From a virus: DNA of 39,758 nt. Below, in pieces: positions 2,047-39,735 of this stretch. A program made the translations under genes and the position numbers. The notes beneath the pieces were generated by a model. It saw only the letters and a list, made by a program, of their open reading frames with translations, had not been told where the DNA came from and ran no database searches. Position 1 is the stretch's first letter; each line of letters starts with the position of its first letter. The DNA is taken from positions 1 to 39,758 of IMG/VR virus record IMGVR_UViG_3300043411_000740. The stretch is one strand, 5' to 3'.

Positions 2047-3276
2047 TTAATTGCGGGTGTACCATGAGCCGGTGGTTTTGGTATTCCATGAGTTGCTATT
2101 TTCAATTTGCCAATATCCATCCATGCCTTTTTTCCATTCACTTATCGTTTGTACATCAATCAGACCATCATCGGTTTTACTTTTAATATAATTTACTAAA
2201 CTTTGAAAATCCGATATTGACCATTCGGTTGATATTGTTGGTAAAGTAGCAAGTTTGTGAAAAAGTAAAGCAACTGTTTCGCCATTATTTATTGCAGTAT
2301 CAATATATCCTTTTGCTGTCGCCAAGCTAGTCGTATTTGCCACATTGTAACGACTTAATGTTAAATAGTTTTTTACACCCTTTATTGTACTGATATTTGA
2401 AGAATTTACAGTAACTCCGGTAAGTATTCCCAAATCTTCGCATGCCTGTAAAACAGTATTATTATAAGACCCACCCGGATACGCGATGTGTTTGTATGAC
2501 CGAGTAAATCCTAAATTTTCAAGATAGTCTGAGCAAGTTGTTATTTTTGTAACAACTCCTTGGTAGTCTAGGGTGGCAAGTAAAACAATGTCTGAGCTAT
2601 GGTTGCATATGTCATTTCCAAGTGCGTACATTTCTGACATTTCCGAGGTGGTCATGTAGTTGCTTGAGTTAGCAGAAGAAATTATATAATAAGTAGCCTT
2701 TAGACCAAGGCTTTTTAAGTAGTTAAATCCATAGTCGTATGCACTTTTCCAGCCATCGTCGAACATTATTAAGCACTTTGGTTTGGCATACAACCCGTAA
2801 TACAAACTGTCAATGTTTACTGTCGATATTTTTGACGATGGAACCCAAACTCTAAATTTAAGCCTTATCATTGTGTTGTCCCAAGTTTCACCACCAACTG
2901 AGGTCCAACTAGCATTTGGAACTGTCAAAAAATTCCATCCTGACGAAAACACACCGCTACCAGTAGTAAATGATTTTTGAAAATATTTACTTGAAATAGA
3001 GGATGTTGATGATAAAAATATATCTAATTGCGAAATATTTGCAGTATCATCAATATAAAACCAAAATCCAAAAATGCCTGGGTTTGGATTTGAAAATGAA
3101 ATTGTTTTGACTATAGATGTAGTTGTTGCAACTCCGGTAATTATTTTTATTGAGTTGGAACCAGTTTTTATATTTTCAGTATCATTAGATTGTGTAGAAC
3201 CTGTCCCCGTAATCGTCCAATCATTTATGTTATCAAAATCTTCCATCATCACACCCGCGCTAATAGCGTAATTCAT
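2047..3276 (-). CDS. Polysaccharide deacetylase-like virion protein (CE4/NodB fold)
   Basis: A 409-residue protein with an N-terminal beta-sandwich-like region (about 12-165), probably carbohydrate binding, followed by a NodB-type deacetylase domain. Visible CE4 motifs are FDDGW at 172-176 (catalytic and metal Asp), NHSSD at 225-229, AYPGGS at 265-270 and LLFHK at 337-341. The usual second metal His of motif 2 (H-x3-H) is replaced: His226 is present but residue 230 is Ile. It could remove acetyl groups from host surface glycan or peptidoglycan, but activity is uncertain. The start overlaps the upstream stop by four bases. Placement among virion genes suggests a structural location. Confidence 0.75.
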   Translation of the reverse strand: MNYAISAGVMMEDFDNINDWTITGTGSTQSNDTENIKTGSNSIKIITGVATTTSIVKTISFSNPNPGIFGFWFYIDDTANISQLDIFLSSTSSISSKYFQKSFTTGSGVFSSGWNFLTVPNASWTSVGGETWDNTMIRLKFRVWVPSSKISTVNIDSLYYGLYAKPKCLIMFDDGWKSAYDYGFNYLKSLGLKATYYIISSANSSNYMTTSEMSEMYALGNDICNHSSDIVLLATLDYQGVVTKITTCSDYLENLGFTRSYKHIAYPGGSYNNTVLQACEDLGILTGVTVNSSNISTIKGVKNYLTLSRYNVANTTSLATAKGYIDTAINNGETVALLFHKLATLPTISTEWSISDFQSLVNYIKSKTDDGLIDVQTISEWKKGMDGYWQIENSNSWNTKTTGSWYTRN

Positions 3277-5393: not shown

Positions 5394-5726
5394 TTATTTA
5401 ACTACTACTTCTTCTAATACCTCGGATTCACTTAACATCACTTGTTCTAGTTTAGAACTCAACTGTACCTTCTGAGATTGTAATGATTCAATCTGTTGGT
5501 CAATACTCACTTGTTGGGCTTCTAAGTCTTCCTTAGTGGGTTCTACTGCCTCCTGTGGGGTATTTACAACCTTAATCCAGTTAGCAAACCTTTCCTCTTT
5601 TTGTAATTCAATTTCTTCCGGTGTAAGTTTTTCGTATTCTTCAACCGGCATGATTATTGCGTCGGAATAAGTCTGTCCATCCCTTTCGATTATAAATCTA
5701 TGTTGTACGAAAATATTGTCATTCAT
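5394..5726 (-). CDS. Small coiled-coil virion-region protein
   Basis: A 110-residue acidic protein. The N-terminal half (VQHRFIIERDGQTYSDAIIMPVEEYEKL) looks folded. The C-terminal half (about 65-100) is a predicted coiled coil with regular hydrophobic spacing (QQIESLQSQKVQLSSKLEQV). It is packed between two virion-surface candidates with one- and two-base gaps, so it is likely co-expressed as a chaperone, stalk or trimerisation partner. No family is recognised. Confidence 0.65.
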   Translation of the reverse strand: MNDNIFVQHRFIIERDGQTYSDAIIMPVEEYEKLTPEEIELQKEERFANWIKVVNTPQEAVEPTKEDLEAQQVSIDQQIESLQSQKVQLSSKLEQVMLSESEVLEEVVVK

Positions 5727-26810: not shown

Positions 26811-26839
26811 ATGTTAGATGATTGTATTATGATTGTCAA
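26811..26839 (-). promoter_or_regulatory. Sigma-70 promoter of the exonuclease operon
   Basis: TTGACA (26839-26834), 17 bases, TAACAT (26816-26811) on the minus strand, followed after six bases by the ATG of the 29-residue peptide. The -35 and spacer share much of their sequence with the promoters at 28005 and 29384 (TTGACAATCATAAT-type). Confidence 0.75.
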
Positions 26840-26847
26840 GTGGCATT

Positions 26848-28004: not shown

Positions 28005-28033
28005 ATGATAGATGATTGTAATATGTTTGTCAA
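28005..28033 (-). promoter_or_regulatory. Sigma-70 promoter of the RecT operon
   Basis: TTGACA (28033-28028), 17 bases, TATCAT (28010-28005), then six bases to the ATG at 27998. The predicted transcription start falls on the start codon, so the first gene is probably leaderless. Confidence 0.8.
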
Positions 28034-28036
28034 GTG

Positions 28037-28330
28037 TTATTTCTTAATAGGACTAGAGTGTGCAACGCAACTGCCGTACCAATCAAACTCGTCGACAAAC
28101 TTTTTGCCTAGCCACTTATAACGCTCCGGTGCCAATTCTTTTTCGTGGTCTCGCTTGGCGTATTCCATACATAGCTCGGCGGTTCTCTCCTCTTGGGTCT
28201 GGTGAGGTATTTTGGTCACGCCGTAAATAATCAGTCCAAATATAAGAGCGCACGCAACAAAGCTGACCACTATAAAAATTGTATTTACTTCAATTGCGTT
28301 TTGTTCGTCGTACAAATCTTGGTATGTCAT
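28037..28330 (-). CDS. Small single-pass membrane protein
   Basis: A 97-residue protein with one membrane segment at about 15-38 (VNTIFIVVSFVACALIFGLIIYGV) and a charged soluble tail of about 55 residues (EERTAELCMEYAKRDHEKE). It is coupled to the RlpA-like gene by a four-base overlap, so the two may form a membrane pair. No family is recognised. Confidence 0.7.
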   Translation of the reverse strand: MTYQDLYDEQNAIEVNTIFIVVSFVACALIFGLIIYGVTKIPHQTQEERTAELCMEYAKRDHEKELAPERYKWLGKKFVDEFDWYGSCVAHSSPIKK

Positions 28331-29377: not shown

Positions 29378-29383
29378 AGAATA

Positions 29384-29413
29384 ATAATACTCCCGATATA
29401 TTATGATTGTCAA
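29384..29413 (-). promoter_or_regulatory. Sigma-70 promoter of the VRR-NUC operon
   Basis: TTGACA (29413-29408), 18 bases, TATTAT (29389-29384), then six bases to the ATG at 29377. The -35 and start of the spacer match the promoter at 26811. Confidence 0.75.
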
Positions 29414-29840
29414 GTGGATATTTGAAGCTAAGTTTGCGGTCGCCGTTTATGAATGTCTGATGGAGTTAGTGTTTTACCTGTTAAACTAAGGAAAATCCTT
29501 GGGGTCTCGAACCTCCAAACTTTTAACTCCAAAGTAAATTTTACCTTGGATAGAGCTTGGGTGTTTAGCTTGTTGTCCAAGGGGGAGTGTGAGGGGGATT
29601 TGAGAAACGGCCCGGCCGTAATCAATCCACTCAAAATCGCCGCCTTTGGTTTTTAAGCCAAACGGTTCCTAAGCTCTCCTATTGCATTTCTTTTACATCG
29701 CTTTGTACAATACGATGGTTTTCTACCTCGGCATATCGCCCGGTATGTTTTTTTGCTTGCCACTTCTTGTTTAACGCCTCAAAGTGACAATTATGTTGTC
29801 CTTGGCGGGGTTAATAACCCAAGTGTAAGCGCGTCGCCTG
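29414..29840. other. Structured non-coding region
   Basis: About 430 bases with no convincing gene; the short frames present have no ribosome site, promoter fit or plausible protein. The region is dense in inverted repeats. From right to left these are a GGGTTA/TAACCC palindrome (29808-29820), an ACGGCC/GGCCGT stem (29607-29619) nested in a TTTGAG/CTCAAA stem, a 7-base CCTTGGA/TCCAAGG pair (29544-29550 with 29576-29582), an 11-base hairpin (29528-29550) and a tRNA-like fold (29462-29530). A replication origin, a regulatory RNA or both are possible. Confidence 0.6.
29462..29530 (-). ncRNA. tRNA-like fold in permuted order
   Basis: Read on the minus strand: a 7-base outer stem (GGAGTTA/TAACTCC), a T-arm-like element with a canonical loop (G-TTCGAGA-C), an AAGGA-TTT-TCCTT hairpin where the acceptor would be, and a D-arm-like element (GTTT-AACAGGTA-AAAC) with A14, the two Gs and A21 in place and TA before it. 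The order is that of a tRNA opened at the anticodon and closed at the acceptor. The T stem has mismatches and the acceptor is only five bases, so it is unlikely to be a working tRNA. Confidence 0.3.
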
Positions 29841-30053
29841 TCAATTCACGCTTACATTCGGACCATCAACATTACCGGGGGCAAAAATGCTCTCGGCGTA
29901 ATCACTCAAATTTGTTTGTTCGGGGTCTTTGTTTGGTTGTTTATCTAGCAATAAGCGAAGTTTCCAATACTCTCTCAATCTCTTGGCAAGCTCGGCACCT
30001 GTGGTACATCGAAATGCCTCTTTGGCTTTTTGTTTTGGTGTTAGTGTATTGTC
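29841..30053 (-). CDS. Small first-early protein
   Basis: A 70-residue protein with a helical, charged first half (TPKQKAKEAFRCTTGAELAKRLREYWKLRLLLDK) and an acidic, Asn/Pro-rich tail. No family is recognised. It lies alone between a leader with inverted repeats (two tandem promoters upstream) and the structured non-coding region. It therefore looks like a separately controlled, perhaps first-expressed, early gene. The ATG at 30053 is preferred over an earlier start in the leader; no clear ribosome site is present. Confidence 0.6.
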   Translation of the reverse strand, partial: DNTLTPKQKAKEAFRCTTGAELAKRLREYWKLRLLLDKQPNKDPEQTNLSDYAESIFAPGNVDGPNVSVN

Positions 30054-30084
30054 CATTAAAAAAACGACTTTCTCGTATACCAAG

Positions 30085-30147
30085 TAGGATTAGTACTTTG
30101 CCAAGTATTGCCTTGGCACACGAAAAAATCGTCTTTAACTAATCCTA
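30085..30147. promoter_or_regulatory. Operator-like inverted repeats in the leader of the small early gene
   Basis: A ten-base inverted repeat (TAGGATTAGT at 30085-30094 and its complement at 30138-30147) flanks an inner hairpin (TGCCAAG-6-CTTGGCA, 30099-30118). The upstream arm touches the -10 box of the promoter at 30147-30176, so a protein bound to both arms could loop out or block transcription. As RNA, the inner hairpin could also regulate translation. Confidence 0.55.
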
Positions 30148-30176
30148 ATATAACACCACTCTTGGCTAGTGGTCAA
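30147..30176 (-). promoter_or_regulatory. Sigma-70 promoter, small early gene
   Basis: TTGACC (30176-30171), 18 bases, TATATT (30152-30147) on the minus strand; with a 17-base spacer the -10 reads TTATAT. It leaves a leader of about 85 bases before the ATG at 30053, unlike the leaderless promoters downstream. Confidence 0.6.
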
Positions 30177-30197
30177 GCCTTTCGGCTCTGTCCTTTT

Positions 30198-30227
30198 ACT
30201 TTAACAAACGGCATGTATTACTGTCAA
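30198..30227 (-). promoter_or_regulatory. Second, weaker promoter upstream
   Basis: A perfect TTGACA (30227-30222) six bases after the HNH stop codon, with a weak -10 (TAAAGT at 18 bases). It may act in tandem with the promoter just downstream. Confidence 0.4.
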
Positions 30228-30232
30228 TACCA

Positions 30233-30577
30233 TCAAAGTGTGTCATTTACATGCCTTAGCCTGTGACATTTTGAACAAAGAGTAACTAAATTATTTGGGC
30301 TATTATTTGCACCGTACCAATACGAGTTGTCGCTACTATTATCTATGTGGTGTACATTTAATCTCCTCAAGTTGGTGCCACAATCAATGCACTTATTTCC
30401 GTCGCGATATAAAATCTCGTTTCTAATCTTAAAATAATTATTCCTAATGTGTTTGCTATTATTTGAGTGATGTTTCCGGTAGCACTCAATTGAATGATAA
30501 GTAGTTTCTGTCCAAACTTGGTTGCTGTTCCTATCAAAATCAATTCCACAACCGGCGCAAATATATTTTTTAATCAC
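30233..30577 (-). CDS. HNH endonuclease
   Basis: A 114-residue protein. The N-terminus is a zinc ribbon (YICAGCGIDFDR...TTYHSIECYRKHH). The C-terminal HNH unit is CIDCGTNLRRLNVHHIDN, then NNLVTLCSKCHRLRH, with both Cys pairs, the His-His and the final His. The start is GTG at 30577, placed six bases after a perfect TATAAT box, so the gene carries its own promoter. It sits between the lysis and early modules, a typical site for a mobile homing-type endonuclease. Confidence 0.88.
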   Translation of the reverse strand: MIKKYICAGCGIDFDRNSNQVWTETTYHSIECYRKHHSNNSKHIRNNYFKIRNEILYRDGNKCIDCGTNLRRLNVHHIDNSSDNSYWYGANNSPNNLVTLCSKCHRLRHVNDTL

Positions 30578-30583
30578 ATATTG

Positions 30584-30612
30584 ATTATATTTGATATGGT
30601 TTTATTTGACAA
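30584..30612 (-). promoter_or_regulatory. Promoter of the HNH gene with flanking inverted repeat
   Basis: TTGTCA (30612-30607), 17 bases, TATAAT (30589-30584), then six bases to the GTG start. An eight-base inverted repeat (TTTGATAT at 30590-30597 and its complement at 30615-30622) brackets the -35 box, a good operator layout. Confidence 0.7.
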
Positions 30613-30656
30613 CTATATCAAACTATGATTAAATATGTTTGTATTGTCCAAATACG

Positions 30657-30698
30657 CCCGGTATCAACTAAGTAACTACGACTTGAGATTGACCCGGG
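30657..30698. repeat. GC-rich inverted repeat after the holin-like gene
   Basis: CCCGG-TA-TCAA (30657-30667) pairs with TTGA-CCCGGG (30689-30698), with a 21-base loop. On the plus strand it is followed by TTTTT, so as a terminator it would best stop plus-strand transcripts, for which no gene is seen. On the minus strand it could still slow polymerase after the lysis genes. Confidence 0.35.
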
Positions 30699-30705
30699 TT
30701 TTTCA

Positions 30706-39375: not shown

Positions 39376-39735
39376 TTACTGAATGGGTGTCGCTTCCGGG
39401 CGGGCCGTTGCTTTTTTTATGTTCTCATAGACTTCTTTGAAGTTATTTACTTCAATTATTGCCATGACAACTCGAGTAATCTCGTCTAAACCAAGTGCTT
39501 CAACCTGCTCTTTTTTGAGCGGTGTGGCGATGGTTAGAATATCGATAAAATCGGGTAATCCCTCACCAATAATGGTGGGTAGTAATCCCAATAATTCATC
39601 GTTTTTCTTTCCCTCAAGTCCTTTGACGTGTTTTGGGAGTTCTTTTATAGCTTTGAGTAAGTCCGAATACTTACCAATAGGTAATTTCGAGACTTCAATG
39701 CTAAGGTCGTCTAATTGTACTGTTTGTGTTTTCAT
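39376..39735 (-). CDS. Tail assembly chaperone (G-like protein)
   Basis: A 119-residue protein just upstream of the tape measure module, in the position of lambda gpG. It is acidic and helical (SDLLKAIKELPKHVKGLEGKKNDELL, then VMAIIEVNNFKEVYENIKK) with no membrane segment. It would coat the tape measure during tail assembly. Eleven codons before its stop lies an A-AAA-AAA slippery heptamer in the correct frame for -1 slippage into the second chaperone frame. No clear ribosome site is visible in the short upstream stretch inside the window. Confidence 0.8.
   Translation of the reverse strand: MKTQTVQLDDLSIEVSKLPIGKYSDLLKAIKELPKHVKGLEGKKNDELLGLLPTIIGEGLPDFIDILTIATPLKKEQVEALGLDEITRVVMAIIEVNNFKEVYENIKKATARPEATPIQ
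39412..39418 (-). promoter_or_regulatory. -1 ribosomal frameshift slippery site
   Basis: Seven As on the minus strand in the frame A-AAA-AAA, followed by G. A -1 slip after the second Lys codon enters the frame of the second chaperone, which is open from here to 39044. This is the known programmed frameshift position of lambda-type G/GT chaperones. Confidence 0.75.

Follow-up and report, generated by a model that had tools for sequence, protein, structure and literature searches.

YrlA (Y RNA-like A) carries pseudouridine and dihydrouridine in its loops, and has a basal stem that joins its 5' and 3' ends and serves in the binding of Rsr. Y RNAs encoded close to Ro60, both in bacteria and in phages, were reportedly described by Chen et al. 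in 2014. YrlA, one of the bacterial Y RNAs, combines the basal stem with a domain similar to three arms of tRNA (D, T and acceptor); it is modified by DusA and TruB, and has been connected with Rsr, a Ro60-like ring, and with PNPase (PMC8394870). The crystal structure of YrlA can be superposed on that of tRNA once the order is circularly permuted (PMC11472068), and it has been proposed that its tRNA-like domain could inhibit an anticodon nuclease competitively (PMC7790460). Phages are also reported to carry YrlA, in a passage that cites Sim and Wolin 2018 (PMC7765460).

Here we analysed a window of 39,758 bases, the whole of one virus record, from a tailed phage whose main genes lie on the minus strand (terminase, portal, minor and major capsid proteins, tape measure, RecT and glycosyltransferases). 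A module on this coding strand (29461-29531, minus) has the permuted anatomy of YrlA and matches the models of both YrlA and phage Y RNAs. It is probably an orphan tRNA mimic of the YrlA type, a reading to which we assign a probability of about 0.68.

Anatomy of the module

In the order of the minus strand, the module consists of TGGAGTTA, AAAGTT, T, a T-arm, an acceptor-stem stub, A, the D-arm GTTT-AACAGGTA-AAAC, AC and TAACTCCA, which is the layout of a tRNA opened at the anticodon and sealed at the acceptor end. A T-loop, hairpin, D-arm and closing stem in permuted order had been proposed in a sequence-only reading of this strand, and all of them are indeed present. The closing helix, at the position of the anticodon stem, pairs the 5' strand TGGAGTTA (29524-29531) with the 3' strand TAACTCCA (29461-29468); the pairing is perfect, as had been stated, but extends over 8 bp and not 7. 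Similarly, the T-arm GG(A)GG-TTCGAGA-CCCC (29501-29516) has the loop TTCGAGA closed by G-C that had been called canonical, but its stem is not, since it has 4 bp and a bulged A where a canonical T-stem has 5 bp and no bulge. The stub is a hairpin, AAGGA-TTT-TCCTT (29488-29500), and the D-arm (29471-29486) is preceded by a TA at the equivalent of tRNA positions 8-9, its T being shared with the stub. Outside the closing helix a single further pairing was seen, of 7 bp (AAGCTAA/TTAGCTT), at a distance untypical for a basal stem. The fold of the whole module is not unusually stable (z -0.5 against shuffles), so that stability alone would have missed it.

No tRNA or tmRNA gene was found in the window by ARAGORN or Rfam, nor did the Rfam scan of the window give any match above gathering scores. 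The T-arm is overlapped by a 60-codon open stretch (29489-29668, minus) with coding-like codon use (0.169 per codon, against 0.135 at the 99th percentile of false frames), which has no start codon and ends at the TAG of the D-arm. We found no homologue of it among phages, viral contigs or relatives, and no family; it is perhaps the end of a broken gene.

Relation to YrlA and to the Y RNAs of other phages

A permissive Rfam scan of 29380-30700 placed RF02553 (YrlA) at 29461-29531 on the minus strand, with 18.1 bits and an E value of 1.1 over 4227 families, which we scaled to ~3e-4 for one family and the scanned stretch, or ~0.008 for one family and the whole window. The helices of the alignment coincide one by one with those of the module, in the same order. 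This score falls far under the RF02553 gathering score of 69 and is equalled by partial matches over tRNA genes in a 2.7-Mb genome; the match appears only on scanning a short stretch, having been missed in a whole-record search with RF02553, and YrlA was not listed in a whole-window scan of all families at E up to 10. Neither the window nor any of its 20 related records encodes Ro60/TROVE (PF05731). We do not class the module as a YrlA gene because, on testing, it fell short of the Rfam threshold and showed no linkage to Ro60. As far as its sequence tells, it resembles such a gene in construction: T-arm, acceptor-like hairpin and D-arm follow each other in the same order, the closing helix stands at the anticodon position, and the loop consensus is shared; it differs from YrlA in lacking a nearby Ro60/Rsr gene and a demonstrable long basal stem, and in its shorter stub, bulged T-stem and score below the Rfam threshold. 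Of the three earlier suggestions, it is the tRNA mimic using the D-loop/T-loop elbow that fits, since the order of parts is that of YrlA, which superposes on tRNA by circular permutation.

Viral contigs were also scanned with a pattern of T-loop, 8-24 nt, TAG and D-loop, which gave at least 120 matches. Three quarters of the matches listed in this first scan were tandem tRNA junctions and were set aside, while about 30 of those listed had no tRNA gene at their position and were phage RNAs built to this plan, most of them with a stub hairpin, often capped by a tetraloop such as UUCG or GAAA; a scan with a shorter linker added a few further elements. Across 32 elements, 96.7% of the cells in the three helices are paired and 140 cells are changed on both sides (shuffle mean 41, with 0 of 500 shuffles as high), and the helix equivalent to the stub shows compensatory changes at 7/7 pairs. 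A rescan with RF02553 recovered the element in 10 of 10 loci, with best scores of 31.7-50.3 bits, all under the threshold of 69, those of elements adjacent to Ro60 included; the module scores lowest. Among the matches listed, 14 of 35 records with such RNAs encode TROVE/Ro60, which by its coordinates lies no more than 1.5 kb from the RNA in about 11 of the 14, and in Mycobacterium phage Sparky the element (49.2 bits) is shortly upstream of a gene annotated as a Ro-like RNA binding protein. From the Rfam matches, the Ro60 linkage and Sparky, we therefore conclude that the plan is that of phage Y RNAs.

A covariance model, R1, was then built from the 32 viral elements with the window excluded. 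R1 matches the window at 29470-29522 with 32.5 bits (E 3e-6), 23 bits above the next-best site (9.4 bits), a result that is partly circular because the window was already known when the search pattern was drawn up from the YrlA consensus. The T-arm and D-arm of the module align with those of both R1 and RF02553. Across ~280 kb of mostly relatives' DNA, the background of R1 did not exceed 10.5 bits except at the tRNA loci of control phages; R1 also matches junctions of tandem tRNAs, and the window has no tRNA.

Phage Y RNAs beside Ro60 (such as those of Sparky and loci L070, L088 and L168) have the same permuted core and are matched by the same models. Unlike the module, they possess an outer stem and often a full anticodon arm, their stub is usually longer and capped by a tetraloop, and Ro60 is encoded nearby. 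The module shares with circularly permuted tRNA genes a 3' half placed before the 5' half, but has neither an anticodon loop nor acceptor ends from which a CCA end could be released, and belongs to a bacterial virus. As in permuted (two-piece) tmRNA, the 5' acceptor strand and D region follow the T-arm, but the module has a true D-stem and no tag-coding part, and ARAGORN and Rfam find no tmRNA. The stable RNAs C and D of T4 are likewise small non-tRNA phage RNAs, but R1 matches only a partial T-arm in T4 rnaC (15.4 bits) and not a permuted module.

Some of the phage elements have features of their own. A complete anticodon arm (at least 4/5 pairs, U33 and a purine at 37) stands just before the T-arm in 15 of 33 (L070, L078, L087, L088, L099, L104, L110, L112, L120, L125, L136, L148, L157, L179 and L191), whereas 2000 shuffles gave 1.5 on average and never more than 7. 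Their anticodons vary (GTG, TTT, TGT, GTT, TGG, GTC and others); the acceptor stub is closed, in many an outer stem encloses the entire structure, and many lie beside Ro60. They look like whole tRNAs, circularly permuted and with the acceptor end sealed, and possibly serve as decoys for anticodon nucleases. An anticodon arm is not mentioned for the YrlA of PMC8394870, and our literature search found no paper on an anticodon-arm form of phage Y RNA. The module itself can be folded with an anticodon-like arm, TTTAC-TTTGGAG-TTAAA (anticodon TGG, 4/5 pairs), that would satisfy this loose test; we rejected this fold, which excludes the much stronger closing helix. Tandem YrlA-like pairs occur near a Ro60 gene in two phages, as located with RF02553: L123 (42.2 and 50.3 bits; 73-182 and 187-321, minus, with 439-510, minus), which also has a weak YrlB match of 23.2 bits, and L198 (33.4 and 46.6 bits; 2615-2676 and 3007-3119, minus). 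At L130 (781-950, plus), a permuted module apparently interrupts another tRNA-like sequence within its anticodon region, with a D-arm-like sequence upstream and a GGGGTTCGATTCCCC T-arm downstream.

Alternative readings of the locus

The main alternative, that the module is a relic of a YrlA-type Y RNA whose transcription or folding has been lost, we consider unlikely. It would be in keeping with the lowest score of the class (18.1 against 31.7-50.3 bits), the bulged T-stem, the lack of Ro60 and a location near an HNH gene in a stretch that differs between relatives; yet the perfect 8-bp closing helix and the consensus bases in both loops are what neutral decay would erode. The reading as an orphan mimic itself leaves room for a decaying copy, the T-stem being bulged, the stub short and no basal stem convincing; we take the module for a Ro-less, possibly decaying, YrlA-like tRNA mimic.

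No close kin came to light with blastn against phage records or with a scan of viral contigs for exact 20-mers, and scans with RecT and the 73-aa ORF beside the module likewise gave no kin. A terminase scan found relatives that are 52-74% identical, one of them in an Omnitrophota MAG, and a scan with a neighbouring protein returned only one relative, G002, again. The module is absent from the terminase-found relatives, many of whose records are fragments (R1 at most 10.5 bits). G002 shares with the window the upstream gene (64-66% identical), the downstream gene and a 19-mer promoter, but its intergenic stretch differs, a 75-aa ORF ending 49 bp before the promoter, and holds no module. The module therefore lies in a variable stretch, since flanks and promoter are conserved and the sequence between them is not. 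Conservation in related phages, which had been named as a check, was thus not borne out at this locus, the sole relative with matching neighbours being without the element; the structure is conserved across unrelated phages instead.

It is more doubtful still that chance alone, in AT-rich phage DNA, brought the T-loop, short hairpin and D-arm close together. About 9 T-loop motifs alone are expected per shuffled window, the fold is no more stable than that of shuffles, kin show no conservation, and some oddities are to be expected when many windows are read. However, a descriptor of T-arm, hairpin and D-arm has only 0.009 sites per dinucleotide-shuffled window, and when closed by a 7-bp stem it was found in 0 of 9387 shuffles. 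This descriptor is post hoc, having been fitted after the fact, and outside evidence was therefore sought in Rfam, other phages and R1. That evidence also speaks against chance: the R1 match stands 23 bits above the next at E 3e-6, the Rfam YrlA match has the same boundaries as the module, and 8-bp Watson-Crick closure at these positions, in a helix that lies outside R1, has p ~0.001.

A cis-acting tRNA-like signal in a polycistronic transcript, at which RNase P or a tRNA enzyme would set an mRNA end between 29841 and 29413, seems very improbable. The module, on the coding strand, lies in a gap of ~430 bp that is flanked by the 73-aa ORF (29841-30062) on one side and by the next gene, with its promoter and start (29413), on the other, and a place between a small gene and a conserved promoter would suit such a signal; against this, the stub has just 5 bp and a 3-nt loop, and the position is not conserved in the relative. 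The promoter-like TTGACA-18-TATTAT of the next gene (29384-29413, minus) is directly downstream of the module and overlaps a repeated 19-mer, whose copy at 29413 supplies the -35; it nearly abuts the ATG, so that the mRNA may be leaderless. For the module itself we found no clear promoter or terminator. A weak promoter-like site, TAAACA-18-TAAAAT (29538-29567, minus), has 9/12 matches, and such sites are expected by chance; an RNA from it would begin near 29531.

The 19-mer CCACTTGACAATCATAATA (minus strand) occurs upstream of genes at 26825-26843, 28019-28037 (84% identical) and 29399-29417 of the window, and at 5401-5419 and 39650-39668 of G002. Upstream of the 73-aa ORF is a long imperfect inverted repeat, GGATTAG...CTAATCC, with T-rich stretches (30063-30155, minus), for which no Rfam family was found. 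We also considered the T-arm as a tRNA-derived attP and dropped this candidate because the window lacks an integrase of PF00589.

Finally, a true permuted tRNA gene, matured through circularisation and cutting, is scarcely credible, and the permuted tRNA relic suggested earlier is not favoured: the order of parts would agree, and relaxed ARAGORN calls the rearranged sequence a tRNA, yet it does the same for the reverse strand, no tRNA model matches, the closed form has no anticodon loop but a perfect 8-bp helix at the anticodon position, the 5-bp acceptor stub with its 3-nt loop leaves no room for a 3' end, and the permuted tRNAs known so far require archaeal or eukaryotic splicing enzymes.

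Possible function and significance

As an orphan mimic of the YrlA type, the module would be transcribed, its T- and D-loops would dock to form a tRNA elbow, and this elbow would be recognised by host tRNA-handling proteins. Without a phage Ro60, the RNA could work with host partners (Rsr if present, PNPase and tRNA-modifying enzymes), or else as a decoy for tRNA-binding or tRNA-cleaving proteins. Given the absence of phage Ro60, the likeliest working mode is that of a tRNA-elbow mimic with host partners. We tentatively suggest, as a possibility of lesser weight, a mimic of the Y RNA type used by the phage without Ro60, a free elbow decoy that might engage host tRNA enzymes or blunt tRNA-cleaving defences.

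So far, YrlA-type tRNA mimics have mostly been seen next to Ro60, in bacteria and in some phages, and a Ro60-free module would uncouple tRNA mimicry from the Ro60 ring. Phage Y RNAs turn out to be common in viral contigs, where they are missed at Rfam's threshold, and often have a complete anticodon arm. Those with such an arm make the idea of decoys against tRNA-cutting defences directly testable.
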